Assembly: GCA_963580455.1 (NCBI GenBank)
Contig: OY756968.1
Location: 22,909,996 to 22,973,995 of the forward strand
DNA: 64,000 bases
From: Euonymus europaeus
Lineage: Eukaryota > Streptophyta > Magnoliopsida > Celastrales > Celastraceae
Direction of reading: 5' to 3'
The translations under genes and the position numbers were made by a program. Shown one piece after another: positions 5,803-64,000 of this stretch. Positions within the stretch are counted from its first letter, which is position 1, and the number at the start of each line of letters is the position of its first letter. The notes below the pieces were generated by a model. It was not told where the DNA came from, made no database searches, and saw only the letters and a program-made list of their open reading frames with translations.

Positions 5803-7526
5803 TCAAGCCATTTCAACTTCACTTTTCGAAGGAGGGAACTCTCCAGCACCATAAGTCGAAGTGTGCTTCGACTCGAACTTCTCTCCATCACCCCACAGAG
5901 CATAAGCTTCCTCTCCATGGATAGCATCATCTCCGGTTTGCAATTCCTCGTCACTCAATCTCAGCGGAACAATGAACCTGATCAACAAACAGATAATGCT
6001 GGTAGTGGTGACATTGACAACAACGACAAACGCAATCCCCATCAATTGAACTCCCATTTGTTTCAATCCAGCGCCAATGTGGCCACTCTTGAGGCCGTAG
6101 GCTAGGCCGATGTAGTGCTCCCAATCATCAACCAAGTAGAAGATGCGGTTGAGCTTGGGCTCGGCGAAGAAGCCGGCGAGGATGCCACCTAGGGATCCGG
6201 CCACTGCGTGGGTATGGAAGACAGCCATGGTGTCGTCGACTTGCTTGAGTATCCAGAGCTTCTTATGGAGGACCATCATTGTGTACCATGGGATACTGCC
6301 TGACATAATTCCCATTATAATGGCTGCCCATCCTTGCACAACACCTGTTCGACAAAATTCCTTGCAGTCAGTTAATTACCACGTAAACGCATATATTTAT
6401 ATTTGTGCAAGCAGAGATTGGATTATTAGTTATTACCCGCTGCAGGTGTAATACAAACTAAGCCAGTGATCATGCCCTGTGTGGCACCGATGACAGAGGG
6501 TTTTCCGAAGAAGAGAATATCAAGGAGGAGCCAAGTGAGCAGACTGGTGGCAGTGCACACGTGGGTGTTGAGGACGGCCAAAGATGCGTCTGTGTTCGCT
6601 GAGTAGGGACCACCACCGTTGAATCCACTCCATCCCATCCACAGTAGGCCCGCCCCTGCCAGCATCAGCAGTATATTGTTTGGTGGAAACCTCTCTCTGT
6701 CCTTGTTTGCCCTTGGCCCCACCTATATTTTTCAGTTTTACCATGAATCGATTTCATTATTTTATCTTTCGCCTTTTGATTAAATTATAATAGCCTAATA
6801 GAGTTTTTTTTTTGAAAATATTATTTATTGTCGTTATCTTCTTGTCAAATTATATTTAACAATTTCTTATAAAAAAATTTAGTCGAGAATGCCAAACACG
6901 CCTTCACACCAATTAATCAAACGGTTAAGATTAATTACCCAAAAAGCCGCAGTGAAGCCAGCCACACCAGAAGACAAGTGGATCACAAAGCCACCGGAGT
7001 AATCAATAATACCCTTCTTAAACAACCACCCGCCCGGACACCATATGCTGTAAGCCCCAATCGTGTAAGAGAAGGTCAACCAAAGTGGCACAAACAACAT
7101 CCATGCATGAAAATTCATTCTCCCAAGCAAAGCCCCGGCGATCAAAATCAACGTAATCGCCGCAAACACAAACTGGAAGTAAACGATCGTCGCATTCGGT
7201 AAGAACCCTATAAAAGCCTGATCCAGCAGAAACTTCTGGTCCAGCGACGTTTCTGGTCGTCCGAGAAGTGGAAGGAATTGTCTACCGAATGACATATTAT
7301 ACCCCCACCCGACCCAACAAACAAGCACGGCCGCAAAAGCGTATAGGGCCATGAACGATGAGTTCACCGCCCATTTCTTCTTAACGATGCTCCCATACAA
7401 AATAACTAGACCCGGTACGCTCTGGATGCCCACAAGAGTCGCTGCTGTTAGCTGCCACGCGTTGTCGCCTTTGTTCAACCATTCTGGGCTCGCCGGGTCA
7501 CTGGCTAAGTTAGCCGGCAGCGACAT
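5803..7526 (-). CDS. AMT3: Ammonium transporter, AMT2/AMT3 subfamily
   Basis: Plasma-membrane ammonium transporter of the Amt/MEP/Rh family. Exons: 7526-6939, 6722-6437, 6344-5803; all junctions are GT-AG and keep frame, giving 471 aa. Family blocks are present: [14 protein letters not shown] near the N-terminus, [20 protein letters not shown], the ammonium-signature region [20 protein letters not shown] with the first pore His, [33 protein letters not shown] and [14 protein letters not shown] with the second pore His. The tail has [20 protein letters not shown], typical of the AMT2/3/4 group. GSIPWYTMM and VVQGWAA match AMT3 better than AMT2. An upstream ATG at 7553 would add nine residues (MPIPTSQTK); I prefer the second ATG (MSLPANL). 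The extracellular loop after [12 protein letters not shown] is short and diverged. Arabidopsis, as I recall, lacks the AMT3 clade, so this gene is an extra member in an otherwise syntenic block. Confidence 0.93.
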
Positions 7527-7553
7527 TTTGGTCTGTGAAGTCGGAATGGGCAA

Positions 7554-20985: not shown

Positions 20986-22622
20986 TATTCAGTGATTAGA
21001 CCAATCAATAGATACCTGAAGAGAATGAAGTACTAGTTTAGTTCCTTCGTCATTGGCCATAAATCCGAATAATTCAAATATAAATCTTCAACCTTGAAAA
21101 ATTCAAAAACAAAGGAAATTTCAAGGCAGATAATTATGAAATTGATTTTGGGTTTAATAGTTATTGTCAAATAGGCACCATCTTTCATAAATTATATATT
21201 GGAAAAAACAAGCATATTTGATCATTTGTGCCACATTTCAATGACATTAATGTAGGGAGGTTGAGTTTAGGGTTTCAGCCATCCATATTAATGTAATCAA
21301 ACCAAAAATATGAAAAATTGAAGATCCCATTTTCTCACATAAAATAAGATTTAGAAAGGAAGAATCTCGAACCTCATTTAACTAACAAAAAACATCACAA
21401 AATTTAAAGACAAATTAGTTTCAAATTCTAAGCATTCATGAACCCTCCTCTTCTTTGAATTGTTCCATGATGCTTCTTCACTAAGCAATTTTTTATGCAG
21501 CACGAATTGCTTCGACGGAGTGGACGATGTCTGTGGAGGCGGTGAGGAAAATGATTAGCTTAGTGTCTGTGCCGATGTCTCACCTCTGATTGCAGTATGT
21601 TTTATTTGTTTTTAGATTGTAGGATTGTATCAGTTGAGATACTTGTTTGCTATGTTATTTTGCTTGTCTTTGGAGTTATTTGATAAAAATGAAGTTTTTA
21701 AATATTTTTTAATTTTTATAGGAAATAAATATACTGAATTATAGAGTGAAAATAATGTTCACCTTAAAAGATCATATCGCCCAAAAACAATAACTTAAAA
21801 AAGAAGCAGCTGTTGGGCTCATCGTAGCCCAGCAAACACAACTACATGTGCAATCCAATTACACAAGTTCATGAGTCCATTCCCTCTCATAGGCGTTCTA
21901 CAATTCCACCTTCGATCGAGTGCATTGGACATTCTTCAAAACACATATCTCAATACAGTTATTTTACTTTTTACATACTTTTTTTCTCACCATTCTACAA
22001 AGTACAAATATCAAGTATACACATATTTTTAATACAATTTTTTTTCATTTTTTGCCACTCAAATTATTTTTTTTTCTTCACTTTTTACATTATCTTTCTT
22101 AAATTGTCAATAATGTTACACTCAAGCACCATTGAAGTTGCTCTTATGTAAGTACGAAATTTTGAGATTTGCTCTAATACCTCGCTGTAACCATTGAAGT
22201 TGCTCTTATGTAAGTACAAAATTTTGAGATTTGCTCTAATACCTCGCTGTAATGGTATTTTTAACCATTAAAAACTTATTTTATTTTTTAGAAATTAAGG
22301 ATGAGTTTTGATCAAAATTACCAATCTCATGGTATATATTTTGTGTCAAATTTTTTTAACAAAGCATAAAAATAAACTCGAAACATTTCATATATTTTTT
22401 TCGTTATATTTGATTTTATCTAAGATCTTGTTCAAATGCTTCAAAATTCCACAACTTTCAATCACTAATACATTCACCAAACCTTGCTAAAGTCAAAAAC
22501 TCATAGCACTAAATCATATGATTAGCCACAGTCTTCGCCAATAATTCAAAATCCATATTGAAGTGAAAATCAGCAGTCAAATGCTTTAATTTTTCAATCT
22601 AAATCTCAAATCACCACAAAAA
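20986..22622. other. AT-rich spacer with no gene
   Basis: Downstream flanks of the CML and MYB-like genes. Nothing coding is supported; the only notable structure is the 62-bp tandem duplication at 22128-22251. Confidence 0.5.
22128..22251. repeat. 62-bp tandem duplication
   Basis: Two head-to-tail copies (22128-22189 and 22190-22251), starting ACCATTGAAGTTGCTC and ending CTCGCTGTA, differ at a single base (AAGTACGAAA against AAGTACAAAA). The near identity suggests a recent duplication. Confidence 0.93.
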
Positions 22623-28243: not shown

Positions 28244-28350
28244 CACACCAATTGCACAACTTGAATGAAACTTCTAAGACCTTCCCAACCACTCTTCTTC
28301 TTGTATCTTTTTGAAGGCTTTGATCCTTCCATTCGTTGCTACCTTCTAAT

Positions 28351-31300
28351 ATGGAACTAACCAGGCCAGCTACAATGCTCATTAACATGAGCACGAGCAC
28401 GGCCACTTTCTCTAAAGCCCAAAAGCGGTGGCGGATTGCTTATTTAACGATCTGTTCTGTGCGGGCAATGCTGCAACTTGCCAAGGAGAACTACCAACCT
28501 TACATTGCACTTGATGTTGGCCCAAAAACTTCACATGATGCCCTTACTTCTAGTATTGATCAAACAAGACTTACAACAATGGTGAAGGAGAAAGACTTGA
28601 CTGCTCTTGGATTGCTTGGAGGTACTGAAGGAGTTGCCACTGGTCTTGGGACGAACTTGGAGGACGGAATCCATGGAGGTGACCTCGACCTCAGCAAGCG
28701 GCGTGAAATGTTTGGTTCAAACACCTACCACCATCCACCTCCAAAAGGATTGATGTATTTTGTTATTGATGCTTTCAAAGACACTACCATCCTCATCTTA
28801 CTGGTCTGTGCAGCCCTTTCTCTTGCTTTTGGCATTAAAGAACATGGGGCTGCGGAAGGTTGGTACGAAGGAGGCAGCATATTTGTAGCCGTCTTCCTTG
28901 TGATTGCTGTCTCTGCTCTAAGCAATTTCAGGCAGGAAACCCAGTTTGACAAGTTGTCAAAAATAAGTAGTAATATCAAAGTTGATGTTGTTAGAGATGG
29001 ACGCCGCCAGCAGATCTCCATCTTTGATATCCTAGTCGGAGATATTGTGTTTCTGAAGATTGGTGATCAAGTTTCGGCCGATGGATTGTTCTTAGATGGG
29101 CATTCTCTACAAGTGGACGAGTCAAGCATGACAGGGGAGAGTGATCATGTAGATGTTGATTGCAACAAGAACCCATTCTTGTTTTCTGGATCTAAGATCG
29201 TGGATGGATATGGCCGAATGCTCGTGACATCCGTTGGGATGAACACTGCATGGGGTGAAATGATGAGCTCAATTTCTCGTGATACCAATGAGCGGACACC
29301 ATTACAAGCCCGGCTCGACAAGCTGACATCTTCTATTGGAAAGGTAGGACTTGCAGTTGCGTTCCTAGTTCTGGTAGTCATGTTAGTTCGTTACTTCACA
29401 GGAAACACAGAAGATGACTATGGGAATAGAGAATACAATGGCAGCAATACAGATCTAGACGACGTATTCAATGCCGTCATTCGCATTGTAGCTGCTGCTG
29501 TCACCATTGTCGTTGTGGCAATCCCAGAAGGTTTGCCATTAGCTGTGACACTCACACTAGCCTACTCCATGAAGAGAATGATGGCTGATCATGCAATGGT
29601 GAGGAAGCTTGCGGCTTGTGAAACAATGGGCTCAGCTACGGTTATTTGTACTGACAAAACAGGCACCTTGACATTGAATCAAATGAAAGTGACCAAATTC
29701 TGGCTAGCTGAAGAATCCATAGCTGAAGATTCTTACAGAGCAATTTCTCAAAAGGTTTGCGAATTCTTCCACCAAGGAGTCGGTTTAAACACAACCGGTA
29801 GTGTCAGCAAACCTATATCAGGATCTGTGCCTGAGTTATCTGGCAGTCCAACCGAAAAGGCGATTCTTTCCTGGGCTGTCTCAGAACTTGGTATGGACAT
29901 GGAAAAATTAAAGCAAAGATATACGGTTCTCCATGTCGAAACCTTCAACTCAGAGAAAAAAAGAAGTGGGATTTCAATCAAGAGCAAGGAAGACAACACT
30001 ACTCATGTGCACTGGAAAGGAGCTGCTGAAATGATATTAGCAATGTGCTCAAACTATTGCGAGAGCAATGGGGTTATAAATCCCATGACTGAAAGTGGAA
30101 GAAATACCTTCGAGAAAATAATCCAAGGCATGGCTGCAAGTAGCCTACGATGCATTGCTTTTGCTCATAAACAAGTTTCAGAGGAAGAAAAGAGGGATGC
30201 TAATGGTGAGGAGGGCAGGCAAAAACTAAAGGAAGATGGCTTGACCTTGCTAGGAATAGTTGGCCTTAAAGACCCATGTCGACCAGGAGTCAAGAAGGCA
30301 GTAGAGGCATGCAAATCTGCAGGAGTAAGCATCAAAATGATCACCGGAGACAATGTTTTCACAGCAAAGGCAATAGCAACAGAATGCGGAATATTAGGGC
30401 ATGAACAATACGGGGATAATGAAGAAGTTGTGGAAGGTGTTGAATTTCGGAACTACACAGATGAAGAGAGAATGGAGAAGGTAGAAAAAATACTTGTGAT
30501 GGCAAGGTCTTCCCCTTTCGACAAACTTCTAATGGTGCAGTGCTTAAAGAAGAAAGGTCATGTTGTTGCGGTCACGGGAGATGGCACAAATGATGCTCCT
30601 GCACTAAAAGAAGCAGATATAGGACTCTCTATGGGCATCCAAGGCACAGAGGTTGCTAAGGAGAGCTCAGACATAGTGATTCTGGATGATAACTTCACTT
30701 CGGTGGCAACAGTGCTAAGATGGGGACGCTGTGTTTATAACAACATCCAGAAATTTATTCAGTTTCAATTGACTGTTAATGTTGCAGCACTAGTTATCAA
30801 CTTTACAGCAGCAGTTTCTGCTGGTGAGGTTCCACTAACAACTGTTCAATTGCTGTGGGTGAATCTCATCATGGACACACTCGGTGCACTGGCCCTTGCC
30901 ACGGAGAGGCCCACTGATGAGCTAATGAAAAAGCAACCAGTGGGTAGGACTGAGCCTCTTATAACAAACATTATGTGGAGAAATCTTCTAGCACAAGCAC
31001 TATACCAGATAACAATACTCTTGATTTTACAATTTCAAGGTGAGTCTATCTTCAATGTGAGTCAAGAGGTAAATAACACGCTGATTTTCAATACTTTTGT
31101 TCTCTGCCAAGTTTTCAACGAGTTCAATGCTAGGAAGTTGGAGAAGAAAAATGTATTTCAAGGGCTTCACAAAAACCATTTGTTTATCGGAATTGTGGGG
31201 ATAACTATCATACTTCAGTTCGTGATGGTGGAGTTCCTAAAGGACTTTGCAGATACAGAGAAGTTGAGTGTGTGGCAGTGGGGTACTTGCATTTTAATCG

Positions 31301-31425
31301 CGGCATTTACATGGCCCATTGGCTTCTGCGTGAAGTTCATACCTGTTTCGGACAAACCACTCTTCAGCTACCTCAGAGAGTTGAGGATATTTAATCGAAA
31401 AGGTAAGGCAATCTATGAACCTTAG
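28351..31425 (+). CDS. ACA12: Autoinhibited Ca2+-ATPase, plasma-membrane type (ACA12/ACA13)
   Basis: P-type IIB ATPase that pumps Ca2+ out of the cytosol at ATP cost; 1,024 aa in one uninterrupted exon, as in Arabidopsis ACA12/ACA13. The N-terminal autoinhibitory, calmodulin-binding segment is at about residues 22-45 (KAQKRWRIAYLTICSVRAML). The TGES actuator loop is at 261-264, PEGLP in TM4 at 392-396, the phosphorylation motif DKTGTLT with D435, and the hinge motif GDGTNDAP from about 743. The TM6 segment is VNLIMDTLGALALATERPT. About ten hydrophobic segments are present. The open frame extends five codons upstream from a TTG, but the first ATG (MELTRPAT) at 28351 is the likely start. ACA12/13 lack some of the usual calmodulin dependence in Arabidopsis; whether this holds here cannot be read from sequence. 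A TATA box lies 108 bp upstream. Confidence 0.95.
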   Translation: MELTRPATMLINMSTSTATFSKAQKRWRIAYLTICSVRAMLQLAKENYQPYIALDVGPKTSHDALTSSIDQTRLTTMVKEKDLTALGLLGGTEGVATGLGTNLEDGIHGGDLDLSKRREMFGSNTYHHPPPKGLMYFVIDAFKDTTILILLVCAALSLAFGIKEHGAAEGWYEGGSIFVAVFLVIAVSALSNFRQETQFDKLSKISSNIKVDVVRDGRRQQISIFDILVGDIVFLKIGDQVSADGLFLDGHSLQVDESSMTGESDHVDVDCNKNPFLFSGSKIVDGYGRMLVTSVGMNTAWGEMMSSISRDTNERTPLQARLDKLTSSIGKVGLAVAFLVLVVMLVRYFTGNTEDDYGNREYNGSNTDLDDVFNAVIRIVAAAVTIVVVAIPEGLPLAVTLTLAYSMKRMMADHAMVRKLAACETMGSATVICTDKTGTLTLNQMKVTKFWLAEESIAEDSYRAISQKVCEFFHQGVGLNTTGSVSKPISGSVPELSGSPTEKAILSWAVSELGMDMEKLKQRYTVLHVETFNSEKKRSGISIKSKEDNTTHVHWKGAAEMILAMCSNYCESNGVINPMTESGRNTFEKIIQGMAASSLRCIAFAHKQVSEEEKRDANGEEGRQKLKEDGLTLLGIVGLKDPCRPGVKKAVEACKSAGVSIKMITGDNVFTAKAIATECGILGHEQYGDNEEVVEGVEFRNYTDEERMEKVEKILVMARSSPFDKLLMVQCLKKKGHVVAVTGDGTNDAPALKEADIGLSMGIQGTEVAKESSDIVILDDNFTSVATVLRWGRCVYNNIQKFIQFQLTVNVAALVINFTAAVSAGEVPLTTVQLLWVNLIMDTLGALALATERPTDELMKKQPVGRTEPLITNIMWRNLLAQALYQITILLILQFQGESIFNVSQEVNNTLIFNTFVLCQVFNEFNARKLEKKNVFQGLHKNHLFIGIVGITIILQFVMVEFLKDFADTEKLSVWQWGTCILIAAFTWPIGFCVKFIPVSDKPLFSYLRELRIFNRKGKAIYEP

Positions 31426-33056: not shown

Positions 33057-33065
33057 AAATTATTA

Positions 33066-33178
33066 GGGTTTTTTGGAAAAATGACCTCCCTTTTCATAAT
33101 ATTTGGAGATCTAACCCCACCTCTCATTCTATCTAAAGTTTAACCCTTTTGTCAAAGGAAAAGACGCTGCTGCCCTTA
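33066..33178 (+). repeat. Left TIR of the MULE
   Basis: 113 bp starting GGGTTTTTTGGAAAAATGAC and ending GACGCTGCTGCCCTTA; 112 of 113 bases match the reverse complement of the right TIR (T against C near position 30 of the TIR). Confidence 0.95.
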
Positions 33179-33199
33179 AACATTAAAAAACTGTAAATA

Positions 33200-34142
33200 T
33201 GAATAGTAACTGCCTTGGGATGCGGTTTTACGTCATTTCAACAGTTTTTTGTTTTTCATTTCGACAACTCTTCTTCTTCCTTCTTCTTCCTTCCTTCTTC
33301 TTCTTCCTCTGGTTACATCATTTCGACGAACTTCGGTGGGTATACTTGTTTCGCGACGAACAAGAGAGACTACGAAGCAAGGTTAGTTTCATCTCCTTTA
33401 TTTCTGTACTGTCATTTATCTTCTGTATGTTATGGTGTCACTGTTGGTTCATTTTGCCCTAAATTATTGGCTTATGTTGATGGTTTATCTGTTACATTTG
33501 TTTTATCTGTTACATTTCGTTTGGAAATCGACAGTTCTCGTGTGTGTGTTAGATGCTTTTATGATGAAAGATTTCAACTGATGTTTCATACACACTCATA
33601 CAACTCTCCTTTATTTGATTATATGAGAGTGTTTTCTGAGTTACTGAGTGAAAGTTTTATACTTTTGGTGGATAAGTGTATTATTTTTCGGGAATAGAAA
33701 GAAACATATTAACGTTGATAACTCATACTTTTCGTTGATTAAAGTATTAAATTTTCGTTGATAACAATGTTAAGTTTTCGTTGATAACTTTATTTATACA
33801 TGATGGTAATTCATTGTTTTCGTTGATAACCGTATAATTTTCTCGTTTAGAAAATTGTTTTTGTACGTTGGTAAAGATTTGTTTAGGTTGATAACTTTTG
33901 TAATATTTGTTTTCGTTGATAAATTTTGCAATCTCCAAGTGCATGTATTTATGTAATAACTAACCCAAAGTTTCAGTTGATAACTGTATTAATTTTTTGT
34001 GTATTATTTGTTTATTCTTGTCACTTAGGTCGACAACACAGATTTTTATGTTGATAAAATGTCTTATTTTTAGGTTTATAGATTTTCTTACTTAGGTTGA
34101 TAACTTAATTTTTGGCCTCATAACCACATGAGTTTGTATGCA
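33200..34142 (+). other. 5' UTR exon and leader intron of the Ulp1 gene, with GTTGATAA repeats
   Basis: A TTC-rich leader (33265-33310) is followed by a plausible donor (AAGCAAG|GTTAGT, 33381/33382). The next acceptor is TGTATGCAG at 34142, ten bases before the ATG at 34153. The intron contains about ten copies of GTTGATAA on the plus strand (for example 33714, 33757, 33780, 33822, 33885, 33914 and others up to 34100) plus variants such as GTTGGTAA. Confidence 0.55.
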
Positions 34143-34152
34143 GAGTTCATAA

Positions 34153-37100
34153 ATGGAATTCAAAATTCCTCCAACTAAGAGATTCGGTGCTAAGGTTTTG
34201 TCTTTCGCAAGGGTTTTTGAAACCCTTAGCGACATCAAAAGTAAGTTGAACGATGATCAACTTACAACGTTTAAGGGATTCATGCTTCGGCCAGTTCATC
34301 CATTTGAAAAACATCAAATGGGCTGCTCAGATTGTTCACCAAATACTTTTACGACAGGTGCAATCAGATGAGGATGAACAGGCTGGGAGGATGATATTTA
34401 ATATTGGTGGACATAAGACTATTTTTTCCATACGGGAATTCAACATGATAACAAGCCTGAATTGTCATGCCATTCCAGAGATGTCTGAATTCCTAGAAAT
34501 GGTAGAGAAAGAGTATGGTGGGCAACCTGAGGTTGGGTTGCAAGAAAAATATTTTGGAGGAAGATTTTCTATATCTTGTGCGGAGTTACAAAAAGTTTTC
34601 ATGAAATGCGATGACCCAGACGATGTGGTCAAACTAGCACTAGTCTACTTTCTTGAGACTGTGCTTCTGGGTAGAGATTCGAAGCTGCTTGTTGATGTTG
34701 ATTTTTTCAGGCTGGTTGAGCATTTTGACTCTTTCAACAAGTATCCTTGGGGTACTTTGTGCTACAAGAAAACAGTGGAACAACTTAGTAATTCACTTGT
34801 TGGACGCGCCGACAAGTTGAAGAAATCAAGAACGGAATTCGAGTGGTACAATCTTCAAGGATTTCCTCTAGCCTTCCAGATATGGGCATACGAGGTTGTT
34901 CCTTCCATTGCTGAAAATCTAGCAAACTGTGTTGATGTCACATTGATTCCGAGGATGTTAAAGTGGACATCTACAAAAGCACCAAAATCGAAGACTGTTA
35001 TTGAGTTGCTTGAAGGATTAGAGGTAAAAAAAAATTCGTTGGTAATTTAATGGTTTTCGTTGATTCGTTAGTATTTTTTGTTGATAACTTAGTAGTTCTC
35101 GTTGATAACATAGTTGTTCTCGTTGATAATGCAGTATTTTTCGTTTATAGTATAATATTTTCCGTAGATAATATACATGATTTTTGTTGATAACTTAAGG
35201 TCTTCTTACTCAGGTGGAAGTGATTGATATGGTTCCTACAGAGGCGGAGGCCTCTCTTGAGTACACAAGTAATTTGATGGTTGACACTGAAGTTGTAGTG
35301 AAGAGGTCGAGTAAAGAAAAAATGTTGAAGAATAAGGCAAAAAGACTGAACAGGTCAGAACCTAATGAAGATCCAGCCAAAATTGTGGATGATTTGAAGT
35401 CTACGGAGCTGGGACTGAGGGTGAGTGCCTTGATCAATGGAATGGTAAGGGAAAATCTTTCCATTTTCGAAAATAAGATTGATGATATCTCCGTAAGACT
35501 CGAAAAGGTTGAGCAGGAAATTTTAGAGTTGAAAAATTCACAGATGAAAGAAAAGATGGTTGTGAGGGATATTTCTGTCTCAAAATCTGCTCACATGGGG
35601 TCATCATCCAAGAAGGACAGCGGAAAAGTAGATAAGACAAAGATAATGGAGAAGAGGAAGACTGTAATAAAGGTTGTAAGGAAACCAAGGGGGGAGCGTA
35701 TTCAGACAGAACAACTTAGGAGGAGCACACGATTGATGCAGGATAAGGGGAGTCCGCTAAAAGAGGCAGCGGATCTAGAGAGCAAGAAACGCATAGCACT
35801 CCAAAATTTGCGCCAAAACATTGAGAAAAAGCGAAGGACTGGATATAGTAAAAATACAGATTTCAAACAGGGGGATGAGAAAAATAGAGGAGGGGAGAAA
35901 GAAGAGCTGGATGAGAACTCCAAAAGAGAGTTAGATAAGGTAGTTTCGAATATTGCTGGGCAAGTAAAAGATGGATCATCTGAATCTACTGACGATGATT
36001 CTGGAAAATTTTACATTGCCCCACATGATAATAATAAGGATGCCATGTACGAGACGGAAAAAACATCTGATAAGTTTCATCAGGATGATAATGTGAATGT
36101 TGAGGTTGACACCACTTCTGTTAAGGTTGATAACTCCACTATCGAGGTTGATAGTTTGAAGTCTGAGGTTGATAAAGACGCCGATGCTACGGTTGATAAA
36201 GAATCTGGTGATTTGATTGATAAATCTGTTATGGGTGAGCGATTTGAAGAAGATATCAATGACGTGGTTGACAACTCTGCTGTGGATGAGGTTGAGAAGT
36301 CTGATGCAAAAGAAGTTGTTAACGTTGTGGGTGTGGTTGATAACACAGCTGTGGAGTTTGAAAAAACTGTTGTGGGTGAGGTTGATGAAGGAAATTTTGA
36401 GGTTGATAACACAGGTGTGAAGGTTGATAAAGCCGCTGTTGGTGAGGTTGCTGAAGGAAAGATTGAGGTTGATAACACTACTGTGAATGTTGATAAAGCA
36501 GCTGTAGGTGAGGTTGATGAATCTAATATTGAGGTTGATAACACAGGTGTGGAGGTTGATAAAGACGCTCATGGTGAGGCTGCTGAAGGTATTGAGGTTG
36601 ATAAGGTCCAAAAATCATCTGCTGATGAGGTCGATAAATCTGCAGTGGATAAGGTTGAGGAATCTGTTGCTGAAGTTCAGAAGACAGAGGATCAGGTTGG
36701 TGAAGCAGTTGATGATGAAGAAACAGATGACGAGAAATTGCAGTTGTTGGCAAACTTGGCAACTGAAAACACTGGTGTTCATGGTAAACGGATAAAAAAG
36801 AGGGGCCCCTATCAGGTGTCACCGTACGTTGATCCCACAAAGAAGAAGAGAAAGCCGCAACAATTTCTAGAATTTAACCCACTTTCAGAATACCCAAAAG
36901 AATGGGAAATAGAAATGGATGAATTCTACATGAATCCCGTGAACAAGGATAAGACCATAGATGTCAATGTATGTGATGCAACGAAAGAATGGTTCGATAC
37001 TGTGATGGACCAAAGCAAATGGTTATTGGATACGGTACGTATTGTTCTTCATTTTGTCATACTATTTTTAATTACAAATGTCTGATGATTTACATCTTTC

Positions 37101-37961
37101 TTCAGCATCTTGATGTGGCTATGGATATAATACGTAAGAGATTAGCTGGAAATGCAGATATTTTCACACAAAAATGTGCGATTATGGATACCACGTTCTT
37201 TGTAAGTCATTATTCTCATTTATATAGGTTGAAAAACTACTTTATTCTGGTTGAAAAACTACTTTATTCTCGTTGATAAACTACTTTATTCTCGTTTATT
37301 CTGGTTGATAAAATACTTCATTCTCGTTTATTCTGGTTGACAAATTTCTATTACTTCCAGTCATATGTCCAGATCAGACATAAACTATATCTAGAAGACA
37401 CAAATCCATTAAAATGGGACAATGACAATCGTCTTCTATCTTTTGTCAACGGATCAAAGAGGGGAACTGAATCCTGGTCGAAGTTGGAAAAGATTTATTT
37501 TCCAATAAATATTACTTCTGATCATTGGGCTGCTGGTTGCATCGATATGGCTGAGAAGAAGATTGTTTGCTATGACTCTCTTGTAAAACACACAAGACAA
37601 GAGAAGTTCAACACCGAGATGAAGCCATTATCTGAATTAATTCCTATAATTCTAGTGCGTGCAAGTATTATCGTTGACGGCTCTCCATGGCCAGTTGAGC
37701 GTCCCTCTGATGTTCCGCAGCAAGATAATGGGTAAGTGTTGCGTAACTTTATTTGAAATACAATAAAAATCCAACGTCATAACTAACATCCACTATTTTT
37801 CTTTTAATTTTTCCAGTTCCGACTGTGGTATTTTCTGCATTAAAATCATTGAAATTCTAAGTGCTGGTAAGGACATTACGATGTTGAAGGCTCAGGACAT
37901 GCAGTTTCTCAGGAAAAAATTCGCTGTGGAGACATGGAAAAATGTGATGTTGGGTAGTTAG
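34153..37961 (+). pseudogene. DUF1985 / Ulp1-like cysteine protease of the MULE, one frameshift
   Basis: Exons 34143-35023, 35214-37034, 37106-37201, 37361-37731, 37817-37961, all GT-AG. The N-terminal DUF1985 region runs from MEFKIPPTKRFGAKV through RLRDSCFGQFIHLKNIKW, IFSIREFNMITSLNC and EWYNLQGFPLAFQIWAYEV. The second exon is charged and carries a run of EVDNTGVKVDKAAVGEV-type repeats. The last exons hold a C48 (Ulp1/SENP) protease domain with the His of DHWAAG, the Asp of CYDSL, the Gln of PQQDNG and the nucleophile of SDCGIFC. Thus the catalytic residues are all present. One extra G in the GGG at 34275-34277 shifts the frame between TTFK and DSCFGQF; without it the spliced frame is 1,100 codons. 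The protease could process SUMO- or ubiquitin-like proteins; its benefit to the transposon is unknown. Confidence 0.85.
36096..36660 (+). repeat. Coding VDN/VDK repeat array built on GTTGATAA
   Basis: Within exon 3 of the Ulp1 gene, about eleven exact GTTGATAA copies and as many variants are spaced mostly 20-45 bp apart. They encode V-D-N or V-D-K, in an acidic repeat whose best-preserved period is 66 bp (22 aa, about 36390-36590). The same octamer fills the introns of this element. Confidence 0.85.
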
Positions 37962-38232
37962 TTTTGATTATGCTTATGTACATTTGAAGCAAAATATTTG
38001 ACAGTGATTTGTTAATCTGTTATGTTATGTGTTGATTGTGGACAGTTTTAGAAAAATATCAACGAGAAATAAATGTGCTTAACGACACATCTCAACCCAC
38101 ACATCTATTTTTATCAACGAAAATACATATAACAAATTCGAGAAAGTAGTTATCAACTACATATATATAACATTAGTTATCAACCAGGGAGAAATATCCT
38201 TTAAAATAATTACCTACGAATACGAATACAGA

Positions 38233-40966
38233 TTATGACGTGCCAGATGGCAGATTAATGGGCTCACTGCATGTTTGACGGTTGTGACCATCTCGATTGC
38301 AGCGACTGCATTTTCTTTTAGGCTTTCGCTCTCCGGACGACGGTATTCGATTCTTCTTCGGCCTTCCGCTTTTTCTCTTAGTTTCCGGTGGGAGCAACTC
38401 TCTGACGTCATCAACCGATACACTATTTTCTGAACTCAAAACAGGGTTTACTGGTTCTGCATACGCAAGGACAAGCATGTCTGTACGGTAGTAAGGCGAA
38501 CACAAGGGAACTGTTGGTATCTTTCTAGCTCTACATGCTGCAAAAGCGTGGACGCATGGCATATGATCGAGATCGAAAACTCTGCAAGTGCACGATTTAC
38601 TGGACAAATCTACTTGTCCTCCAACATCACCGTCTTTCACAAGAAAAGAATGTATAGTAATAGGCTCTACAGTCATTACTCTGGCTCTGTAAATTTATTA
38701 TAACAACATAACAGTAGAAGAGCACTTAGTTATATAAATTATAACATTCGGATATCAACCATAATTACGAACTTATCAACCAAAATTTGACCCATTTATC
38801 AACGATAAGTACTTTCAACGAGAGTTTATCAACCGTACGACTTGGTCGTTTCAGACATGTCCGGCATGTGACTCGGATATCAGCCATAATTACGAACTTA
38901 TCAACCAAAAATAGACCCATTTATCAACGATAAGTACTTTCAACGAGAGTTTATCAACCTTATGACTTGGTCGTTTCAGACATGTCCGGCATGTGACTCG
39001 GATATCAACCATAATTACGAACTTATCAACCAAAAATTGACCCATTTATCAACGATAAGTACTTTCAACGAGAGTTTGTCAACGATAAAATATGAAATAA
39101 TGATCTGAAAATTACATACATGTCCCTTCTTTCTTCAGATACTTTATCATAATAGTCCGTCAACTCGCTTTTCATCTCAACAGCTACTAAGCGTCTATCA
39201 TGAAACCATCGCTGTAATAAAGATTGCAAATGATCCATCAACCTTGTAATAGGTAAGCTGCGAGCATCCCTTAATATTCCATTCAGGCATTCAGCAATGT
39301 TGGTAGTCATGATATTATACCGTTCTCCGGGAAAATAAGCGCGAGACCATTTGTGAACACCTGCTTCCGTCAAATAATTGAAAACATTACCTGAATCAAA
39401 TCTACGTATCTGGTTCATAATCTGGTGGAACTCCATCTGATTGTATGTCTTGGCTGCCTTGTAGAATACAGGGATGACGGAGTCACTAAATTTTCTTGCC
39501 TTCAAATTCTGACCAAGGTGATACATGCAAATACCATGTTTGGCATCAGGAAACACTCTACGAATTCCTTTTTCAATACTACCATTTCTATCCGAAATGA
39601 AAACAAGTGATTCAATGCATCCAATAGCTGCATTCAATTTTTCAAAAAACCATTGCCACGCATAATCATTTTCTGAATCACCAACCCCGAAAGCCAAAGG
39701 ATATACCTGGTTGTTTCCATCTAAACATGTGGCAACGAATAATGTTCCACGATATTTACCCTTCAAATGAGTTCCATCGACGCAAATTACAGGTCTTATA
39801 CAAGTACGAAAACCTCTTAACGATGGACCAAGTGCCATAAAGCAATATTTGAAACGATTGCAAGAGTCAGACTTAATATGTGTTACTGTACCTGGATTTT
39901 TTGATTCCAATTTTGCAAAAAATGATGATAATTCAGCAAAAGATTGTTCCGGCGTACCATGCAGTGAATGTAGTGCACTTTCCCTTGCCCGCCAAGCTTT
40001 ATCATAACTGATGGCAACTCCATGCACTCTCTCGAAATCCTTCACAATGTCCTTTGGCCTGTAAATACAGCTAACTCCCTCATATTTAGATTTGATGCAT
40101 TCTCCCACAACCCATCCTGTCGCTTGTCGAGCATTATTATATTCAAAACAAGAGGAAGACAAATGGCTATCCCGAAATACCTTGATCATGAAAAAAGATG
40201 TATCCTTAACTCTGGTTGCTCGAAGCCACCACTTGCAGTCATCTACTTTGCATTTAACAACAAAAAGAATTTTTGTCGATTTATGCACTTTGAATTCAAA
40301 GTGCAAATGAAGAGCATGAATGCATAACTTTTTTAACAGACTCTTTTTGTCTGGAAATATTTCTCCGACTTTCAAAATGGTAGATGCATCATCAAGTACA
40401 AGATGTTGGTTGGAGGATATCGCATTACCACAACTTTGTGACTTACTAATAGAATTAGAAGCGTCGATTCCACCAGCTGAATGATAATTTGCGTTAAATT
40501 CTGATCCATGTATTTGAGGATCATTAAGATCCTCCATGTTCCTGCTGCATCCAACTTCGGCCGGATCATCCACCAAATCTGTAAACCCAATATCATATCG
40601 GTAGTCATTCAAATCAAATTCCAGATCATTAGCATCGTCAGATACGTCTCTATCAGTGACTGTAACACATAGAGATGTTCCAGGTATGCTCCTGTCGCTA
40701 TTGCATCGAACGAAGAAGCGGACGTCCTTATTACTCTCAATCTCAACGGGCTCAGTTGGACCATGGACATTGTAAATGTACTTCAATTGAACATTGTATG
40801 TTTCACGATCTTTTCCCGTCAATTCATACACCATATCCAATAATTGGTCATACGAAATATCATTTGGAATGATCAAACCCTTACTCTTCCCACCTTTATA
40901 CGCATAACTGACTCCAACCCGTTCCCAAGAGCCACAATAGCGTACCAATATGCTAACCTCCTCCAT
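38233..40966 (-). CDS. MuDR-type transposase of the MULE
   Basis: Exons 40966-39120 and 38686-38233 give 766 aa without stop. N-terminal region about residues 1-95 (MEEVSILVRYCGSWERVG...) resembles the PB1/ubiquitin-like head of plant MULE transposases. A MuDR-type DNA-binding zinc region follows (CKVDDCKWWLRA, ...HLSSSC). The transposase core has CVDGTHLKGKYRGTLFVA (first Asp), LVFISDRNGSIEKGI (second Asp), the C..H-type motif ISMYHL-like GICMYHLGQN, and NIAECLNGILRD with the likely Glu. Exon 2 holds a SWIM zinc finger (CTCRVFDLDHMPCVHAFAA) and a CCHC knuckle (CSRCNRDGHNRQTC), then a basic tail. The intron (39119-38687) contains a 125-bp tandem repeat. The frame is open to a TTG ten codons upstream; the first ATG (MEEVSIL) at 40966 is taken as start. 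It is convergent with the Ulp1 gene. Confidence 0.93.
38750..39081. repeat. 125-bp tandem repeat, about 2.7 copies
   Basis: Copies start at 38750, 38875 and 39000 with GGATATCA(A/G)CCATAATTAC and share ACTTATCAACC, ATTTATCAACG, TTTCAACGAGAG and GACATGTCCGGCATGTGACT. The copies are nearly identical. The array fills most of the transposase intron; each unit has three to four TTATCAAC (GTTGATAA on the sense strand) sites. Confidence 0.93.
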
Positions 40967-41805
40967 TTCTGAATCACAAAGATAACAAGTAGTCAACGAA
41001 TAATTTATACACAGTCCTTAACATAACACTTACATGAACATAATTATAAACCAAAAATACATACAGTTCTAAACAAAAAGTATATAGATATTTATCAACC
41101 AAATGGTTATCTGGGATAAACGAAAATAATTTCAAACATATTTCCCAACGAAAAAATTGACATATATAAACGAAAATAAAACTATTTATCAACGAAAAAA
41201 AAAAGACAGATAAACAAGCTTAAACATATTTCTCAACGAAAACATTAACCCATTTCAACGAGAATAAAACAACTTGTCAACGATTGTTAAAGCTACTTGT
41301 CAACGAAAAAATTTTCTGAACGAAACTACTTCTGGATGAACAATACATGCATTTATCAAATAAATATTTCACTTTGTATCGTTCGGTTGTAATATATGAC
41401 AGTTCTCAAAACCAAATGCACCAGACTAACCTTAGTTTAGTGATATTCCTTCTCAAAACAAAATTAGAAGGCAAACAAAAACTGAGGACAAGATGTCCAA
41501 CGACGGATGAAGCTTCGGAGCTTTGGATAAGTAGTCCGAGAAAGGATGGAGTGCTGGACACATAGAAATGACGTTGAGCACTAGTATGTTAGTCCAATCG
41601 AACACGGAGCTTGCGTTCGGTCCTTGTTCCAGAGGTTAGGATCCTTTCTGGGAGACAGATGCTGAACGAGGTGAGAGATCTACCTCACTTCGAAGCTTGA
41701 GAGGTGCGAGACATGGAGGAAGAGAGAGGAAGAGGCGAGCAAGCTGCAGGCTGGTTTTCATGGGTTCTAGGGTTTTCTTGGAGGGAACGTGCATCAAAAG
41801 ACGTG
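40967..41805 (-). other. 5' region of the transposase gene
   Basis: Upstream side of the minus-strand transposase gene, between it and the right TIR. 41090-41320 contains TTATCAAC and TCAACGAAAA repeats, i.e. the sense-strand CGTTGATAA family again. 41560-41800 is more GC-rich and probably holds the first exon and promoter next to the TIR. Confidence 0.5.
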
Positions 41806-41918
41806 TAAGGGCAGCAGCGTCTTTTCCTTTGACAAAAGGGTTAAACTTTAGATAGAATGAGAGGTGGGGTTAGATCTCCAAATATTATGAAAAGGGGGGT
41901 CATTTTTCCAAAAAACCC
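41806..41918 (-). repeat. Right TIR of the MULE
   Basis: 113 bp, reverse complement of the left TIR with one mismatch. Followed at once by the TSD AAATTATTA (41919-41927). Confidence 0.95.
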
Positions 41919-41927
41919 AAATTATTA

Positions 41928-62546: not shown

Positions 62547-64000
62547 TCACCAAAAATCTCCACAAGAACAGGCCCCGTCCCGAAAATGGTGAAATCTGCT
62601 GGCATCTCTAACAACTAATTCTCGTTCATAGAATTCAGAAACTAACTTGCAGAATGTATGACAATCACCACATACGCGGAGATTCTTCGTAATTCTAATG
62701 GTAGTTCTCTCAGAAGTATGAAGCAGAGCATATGCAATTGCCAGCCTTTCACTATGCCCATGGAGAATCTTCACTTTCTCTTCTTCATCCACATTGTGCA
62801 AAACATGTTTGGTTTGAGCTGTATAACCCCCTTCCCTTTCGAAATGCTCGGTGATTTTGGCTAACTTTTCGTATATCTTGTCGGACTCTGGATGAGCTTT
62901 GTCCCTTGCCATGAATGTATGAACACTACTCCCAACCTCAATCCAACTACAACCAGGATTTTTCTTCAAGCCGCTTCCCTTCATTCTCATTCTCACTTTT
63001 TCCACATCTTCCCATTTACCACTGGCAGCAAAGACATTGGATATAAGGACATAATTTCCTGAACTATCAGGGTCCATATCTAAAAGTTTCTTTGCTGCAA
63101 TTTCTCCTAGTTCTTTATTCTGGTGAACCCGGCAAGCCCCAAGGAGTGCACACCAGACTTCAGAGGTGGGTTCAATCTGCATAGTTTTCACAACACGGTA
63201 TGCCTCTTCCAAACGATTTGCCCTACCAAGGAGATCAACCAGGCAGGCATAGTGTTCTGGCCATGGCTCCAACTGATACTCATCTTGCATCATTTGAAAT
63301 AATTTTTTACCTTCATCGATCAATGCTGAATGACTGCATGCATAAAGAATTGCCAAGAAGGTAATATGATCCGGAACTTGCTTTTCATCCCTCATCCTAC
63401 TGAATAATTTGATTGCATCCCTTCCACGGCCATGCATTCCATTTGCATTAATCATATTAGTCCATAGAACTAGACATTTACTTTTGATACAATTAAATAC
63501 AATATAGGCATCTTTTAGAGCTCCACAACAAGCATACATATCTACAAGAGCATTTGCAATAGATCCTTCTATTACAAAACTGTTTCTGATTAAGAAGCCA
63601 TGGATCTCTTTTCCTTTCTTTAATGCAGACAAACTAGCGGCAGCTGAAAGTATGCTCACGAAGGTCACAGTATCTGGTTCAACATTAGATTCTTTCATGA
63701 AATAGAAAGTTTCCAGAGCCTCATTTGCAAGTCCATTGTGAACATATGATGAAATCATGCTCGTCCATGACACAACATCTTTGTAGTTAATAGATTCAAA
63801 CATTTGAATCGCGCAATCAATACTTCCACATTCTGCATATGCATTGACAAGTTTGTTTCGTAGCATTTGATCAAGTAATTCTCTTCTGGTTAAATAGCTA
63901 TGAACTTCTCTTACTAGGGATACACGGCATAAACCGATGCAAGCAAGCAGGACACTCCCTATCAGCATAACATCAACATTAATCCCCTCCATTTGCACTT
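62547..64000 (-). CDS. OTP86: DYW-type PPR RNA-editing factor (OTP86-like), C-terminal part
   Basis: Organelle RNA-editing factor of the PLS class; the window holds the last 483 codons, and the frame is open through the right edge, so the N-terminal repeats lie outside. PLS repeats are visible, e.g. NKLVNAYAECGSIDCAIQMF, NALVDMYACCGALKDA and WTNMINANGMHGRGRDAIKLF. E/E+ motifs follow (EPTSEVWCALLGACRVHQN, GCSWIEVGSSVHTFMARD). The DYW deaminase domain has the zinc/catalytic HSE in HGHSERLAIAYALL, CGDCHTFCK, and the ending CSCGDFW, where DFW replaces the usual DYW tripeptide. DYW proteins convert C to U at specific chloroplast or mitochondrial sites. Synteny with MIR167 and ACA12 points to OTP86 (At3g63370, rps14 editing), but repeat-by-repeat comparison is needed. 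Transcription is towards MIR167. Confidence 0.85.
   Translation of the reverse strand, partial: VQMEGINVDVMLIGSVLLACIGLCRVSLVREVHSYLTRRELLDQMLRNKLVNAYAECGSIDCAIQMFESINYKDVVSWTSMISSYVHNGLANEALETFYFMKESNVEPDTVTFVSILSAAASLSALKKGKEIHGFLIRNSFVIEGSIANALVDMYACCGALKDAYIVFNCIKSKCLVLWTNMINANGMHGRGRDAIKLFSRMRDEKQVPDHITFLAILYACSHSALIDEGKKLFQMMQDEYQLEPWPEHYACLVDLLGRANRLEEAYRVVKTMQIEPTSEVWCALLGACRVHQNKELGEIAAKKLLDMDPDSSGNYVLISNVFAASGKWEDVEKVRMRMKGSGLKKNPGCSWIEVGSSVHTFMARDKAHPESDKIYEKLAKITEHFEREGGYTAQTKHVLHNVDEEEKVKILHGHSERLAIAYALLHTSERTTIRITKNLRVCGDCHTFCKLVSEFYERELVVRDASRFHHFRDGACSCGDFW

Follow-up and report, generated by a model that had tools for sequence, protein, structure and literature searches.

The closest described counterparts of the locus reported here are the VANC systems of plant Mutator-like elements (MULEs). 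In Arabidopsis, the VANC21/VANDAL21 (Hiun) pair is an anti-silencing system with the short target motif YAGTATTAY, which is densely arrayed, in a single orientation, in introns and other non-coding regions of the element, often within tandem repeats, and tandem duplication has been reported for VANC targets (PMC5735166). VANC6/VANDAL6 follows the same logic with another motif (AGTTGTCC / AGTTGTAC; PMC5735166), and VANC genes that carry an Ulp1 domain (KIU), like eudicot VANC systems, are described as acting on motifs in their own elements (PMC13317346). In the present paper we describe a 64-kb stretch of Euonymus europaeus DNA (the window, i.e. the whole stretch analysed) containing an 8,853-bp MULE at 33066-41918, which is filled with arrays of the octamer GTTGATAA and encodes both a transposase and a DUF1985-Ulp1 protein. 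An earlier interpretation made from the letters alone (the sequence-only reading) had correctly put the motif inside a transposon; its limits are corrected here by the terminal inverted repeats (TIRs) and the 9-bp target-site duplication (TSD).

The TIRs are 116 bp long with two mismatches and, together with the 9-bp TSD, are compatible with the VANDAL clade in the table of PMC6446971, a comparison made by TSD and TIR only. As the TIRs are nearly identical and the two TSD copies are the same, the insertion looks recent. Two convergent genes were modelled, the plus-strand DUF1985-Ulp1 gene and the minus-strand transposase gene, whereas VANDAL21 has three (VANA, VANB and VANC). The transposase has DBD_Tnp_Mut, MULE and SWIM domains and a zinc-knuckle match under the Pfam cut-off, and shows 71% identity over 96% of the query with protein P0001 of Tripterygium wilfordii; these domains, the TIRs and the TSD place both genes in one MULE. 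The sequence-only reading had called the element a KI-MULE (Kaonashi), and the ULP-domain gene does run in reverse to the transposase gene as in that group, but KI-MULEs are described as non-TIR (PMC2528002), as are KIU elements (PMC13317346), and the label is therefore inexact.

Octamer arrays and their orientation

Exact copies of GTTGATAA occur 29 times on the plus strand and 15 times on the minus strand of the window, and 39 of them lie in the MULE, where the octamer is the commonest 8-mer with both strands pooled. Within the element 26 copies are on the plus strand (33714-37304) and 13 on the minus strand (38111-41186); all 39 are plus to the left of approximately 38040 and minus to the right of it, the direction flipping once, between the two convergent genes. 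In 500 dinucleotide shuffles per half, the left half of the element gave means of 0.24 sense and 0.10 antisense copies (largest 4) and the right half 0.18 and 0.10 (largest 3), whereas the flanks, approximately 55 kb in all, hold 5 copies against approximately 3 expected (60 shuffles per flank). Sites with one mismatch are similarly one-sided in the MULE (33 sense and 4 antisense) and balanced in the flanks (41 plus and 42 minus). These data show that the arrays are real and far from chance (fewer than 0.5 copies per shuffled half), and they bear out the earlier claim of a dense one-strand motif, shuffled controls on both strands of the element having been among the checks proposed for it.

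Because many sites are tandem copies, with periods from 21 to 125 bp, counting single sites makes the strand rule look better supported than it is, and the rule rests on the arrays themselves. When an array is taken as exact GTTGATAA sites less than 200 bp apart there are seven, and 7/7 follow the rule, with a chance of 1 in 128 under random array orientation. As the two genes converge, an orientation sense to the local gene and one pointing inwards are indistinguishable in this MULE.

The sites are distributed unevenly over the element (Table 1). Non-coding DNA holds 28/39, and the 11 exonic sites all fall within the linker between the DUF1985 and Ulp1 domains; the DUF1985 exon, the Ulp1 exons, the transposase exons and the TIRs have no exact GTTGATAA. 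The sequence-only reading had given four sites for intron 1, two for intron 3 and about eleven for coding sequence, as well as about ten for the leader, which has nine exact copies. It had also stated that the octamer often takes the longer form CGTTGATAAC, which has just five occurrences in the window; the preceding base is G in 20/39 sites and C in 13/39. T is frequent at positions -5 and -4 (at -4 in 22/23 non-coding sites, with five repeat copies omitted, and 8/11 exonic sites), which suggests a longer site, TTnnSGTTGATAAM. When exact and near sites are taken together, neighbours are 20-24 bp apart in 12/33 non-coding intervals compared with 2.66 at random, whereas the exact sites of arrays 5 and 7 lack such spacing.

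Table 1. Coordinates in the window of the MULE features and the octamer arrays
Feature	Position	Strand	Remarks
TSD AAATTATTA, left copy	33057..33065	.	same 9-mer at both element ends
Left TIR	33066..33181	+	116 bp, 2 mismatches with right TIR; without motif
Array 1	33714..34103	+	nine exact GTTGATAA, DUF1985-Ulp1 5' leader; leader intron putative (donor-like AAG/GTTAGT at 33382)
DUF1985-Ulp1 gene (VANC-like)	34153..37961	+	splice sites read from sequence
DUF1985-Ulp1 modelled coding exons	34153-35023, 35214-37034, 37106-37201, 37361-37731, 37817-37961	+	
DUF1985 domain	34253..35023	+	homologous to part of crystallised VANC21 chain
Array 2	35080..35193	+	four exact sites, intron 1, period ~21 bp
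Array 3	36126..36604	+	eleven exact sites, linker exon, all in frame GTT-GAT-AA (V-D-N/K)
Array 4	37272..37311	+	two exact sites and three near matches, intron 3
Array 5	38111..38184	-	three exact sites, transposase 3' flank
MULE transposase gene	38233..40966	-	modelled exons 40966-39120, 38686-38233
Array 6	38773..39053	-	eight exact sites, transposase intron; inside 125-bp tandem repeat
Array 7	41092..41193	-	two exact sites, transposase 5' leader; leader holds five near matches; putative intron, donor-like site 41430
Right TIR	41803..41918	-	without motif
TSD AAATTATTA, right copy	41919..41927	.	same 9-mer at both element ends

The tandem repeat in the transposase intron (38748-39083) has 2.7 copies of its 125-bp unit with 96% matches, contains eight octamers and looks like a recent expansion. 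The same donor-like sequence occurs in the leaders of both genes and suggests mirror-image leader introns, which would hold the outer motif arrays. Elsewhere in the window we noted a P-type cation ATPase open frame (28336-31425, approximately 1.6 kb from the left end of the MULE), two ordinary plant genes (an ammonium-transporter stretch, 6879-7553, and a PPR-DYW protein, 62547-63998) and a motif-free 62-bp tandem repeat of two copies with 98% matches (22128-22252).

The DUF1985-Ulp1 protein and its candidate target

Pfam searches with the protein from 34253 onward identified DUF1985 (4.8e-20) and Peptidase_C48 (8.3e-37), i.e. the Ulp1 protease, joined by a long linker. The DUF1985 fold appears to match VANC21 (PDB 9lnj) in a low-confidence structure model, of which this match is the sole use made. 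Few relatives were found: one protein search, in which the 7994 candidates with the most shared words were scored, gave three matches and another two, query included, and the viral contigs searched for related loci gave four pattern-matching stretches, none encoding a relative. The homologue P0121 (T. wilfordii LOC120007277, 932 amino acids) has 54% identity within the best-aligned part, which spans 39% of the query. By eye, the start of P0121 resembles different frames before and after an apparent break near 34275 (34253-34290), and this copy may therefore not yield a complete protein, although the break might instead reflect an error in the sequence or a small intron missing from the model.

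Given these features, we propose, with a probability of roughly 0.8, that the DUF1985-Ulp1 protein encoded by the same element family, acting as a VANC-like anti-silencing factor, recognizes the GTTGATAA arrays as its DNA target. The proposal builds on the observed arrays, their orientation and spacing, and the homology of the DUF1985 domain to VANC21. We infer the remainder of the scheme, i.e. binding, demethylation, the history of the arrays and any role of the exonic sites. The protein would bind the octamer, or an extended version close to TTnnSGTTGATAAM, at numerous positions, often approximately two helical turns apart and in one direction per array. It would bring about loss of DNA methylation over the MULE and permit transcription of both MULE genes. 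The idea of a binding-site array was already present in the sequence-only reading, and we retain it in spirit with a different binder, the DUF1985 protein of the element in place of its transposase or some factor of the host. Growth of the arrays was probably by tandem duplication, and would have taken place both in non-coding DNA and in the linker exon, where they would be translated as V-D-N/K repeats.

The MULE resembles VANDAL21 in encoding a DUF1985 protein with a homologous domain, in its short motif, densely arrayed in a single direction in introns and elsewhere outside coding sequence, and in often having its arrays within tandem repeats. It differs from VANDAL21 in the motif itself (neither the VANC21 nor the VANC6 motif occurs in the MULE), in the fusion of Ulp1 and DUF1985 in one protein, and in having 11/39 sites in an exon. 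A VANC gene with an Ulp1 domain is shared with KIU, although KIU elements are called non-TIR and this MULE has TIRs.

The exonic array and competing explanations

The linker copies of the octamer, often 21 bp apart, are always read in the same frame, and the linker has 20 VD pairs compared with 6.6 in shuffles, with a 7-residue (21-bp) spacing in 8/19. P0121, which also joins DUF1985 to Ulp1, has VD repeats in its linker too, although fewer (12 compared with 3.5 in shuffles; 7-residue spacing in 4/11), and as a whole is VD-enriched (18 compared with 6.0). The excess is absent from the more distant DUF1985 proteins P0122, P0123 and P0124 (two, four and one VD pairs respectively), and the feature is known so far from one of four relatives, the nearest. 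The valine codon is GTT in 17/20 linker VD pairs, compared with 24/59 valine codons in the remaining modelled protein (P = 0.0007) and with 14/25 other linker valine codons (P = 0.054, borderline), both tests being limited by the non-independence of tandem copies.

These results are compatible with a gathering of target sites in an exon that tolerates them, with selection on the peptide itself, or with both. Tentatively, the exonic copies might be functional anti-silencing target sites within the coding sequence of the very protein that binds them; tandem duplications would then lengthen target array and peptide repeat jointly, and the sense-only rule would reflect an array whose direction follows that of transcription. 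A possible but likewise doubtful alternative is that the exonic sites persist because of the peptide they encode, as [V/I/F]-x-V-D-[N/K] repeats that serve, for example, in SUMO-interacting-like protein binding by a SUMO protease, the non-coding arrays still being VANC-like targets. The over-representation of VD and the frequent 7-residue spacing in both linkers speak for a peptide role; against it, the non-coding arrays, which yield no peptide, carry exactly the same octamer as the exon, and GTT is favoured in VD pairs, strongly so relative to the rest of the protein, if only marginally within the linker.

Independently of any peptide, the arrays could be a neutral minisatellite, in which slippage and conversion amplified a short sequence to which no protein binds. 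The tandem structure is clear, with periods of 21-23, 66 and 125 bp, and tandem growth would by itself produce a common orientation within each array. It would account less well for one octamer in seven separate arrays when much of the neighbouring sequence differs, for the gene-sense orientation of 7/7 arrays, for the excess of 20-24 bp intervals in non-coding DNA, or for the avoidance of conserved exons and TIRs. In addition, the same MULE encodes a homologue of a DNA-binding protein with targets of just this kind, and we consider a neutral origin improbable.

That the motif acts at the RNA level, in splicing or intron-mediated enhancement, is less probable still. Every site has the sense orientation of its local gene, 25/39 are intronic or belong to a leader with a putative intron, and TTGAT fits the branch-point consensus, which was the point of the splicing idea in the sequence-only reading. 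That idea fits poorly: of 23 intronic sites for which the distance to the 3' splice site was measured (the two transposase-leader sites being left out), just two are within 50 nt (22 and 41 nt, a third being at 51 nt) and 20 are at 83-423 nt, the nearest to the transposase acceptor being 88 nt away. Moreover, two to nine sites per intron exceed what a branch point needs, and 14/39 sites are in the exon or the 3' flank. Binding by the transposase itself or by a GATA factor of the host, both raised earlier, is just as hard to credit, since, although the clustering is specific to the MULE and the octamer includes the WGATAR match TGATAA, neither TIR has a site, the repeated unit is longer than the GATA core, and WGATAR outside the octamer shows only a small sense excess (1.92 sense and 1.36 antisense per kb, compared with 1.36 and 1.54 in the flanks) that may derive from octamer near matches.

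Significance for VANC-type systems

A system of a known kind, VANDAL/VANC, explains most of the finding. The sequence-only reading knew of no description of such a motif in KI-MULEs, and the motif letters were likewise absent from the VANC and MULE matches listed in our literature searches, the only other match being a plant-virus paper, unrelated by title; the phenomenon itself, in contrast, has been described for VANDAL elements. An exonic VANC array was not named among the literature matches listed. Both the motif and the exonic array are apparently new within the literature searched, although Sasaki 2022 (EMBO J) may already describe either. No paper on 9lnj was among the matches listed, and two meeting reports mention unpublished VANC structures.

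The locus suggests that VANC-type anti-silencing, with a new target word, exists outside Arabidopsis in a MULE that has TIRs, the host being a plant whose closest database matches come from Tripterygium. As a VANC21-DNA structure now exists, it provides a concrete protein-motif pair for studying specificity change in VANC proteins. In addition, tandem peptide repeats have been reported in VANC proteins, and the exonic array suggests a simple origin for them, as in some cases they may be translated target sites.
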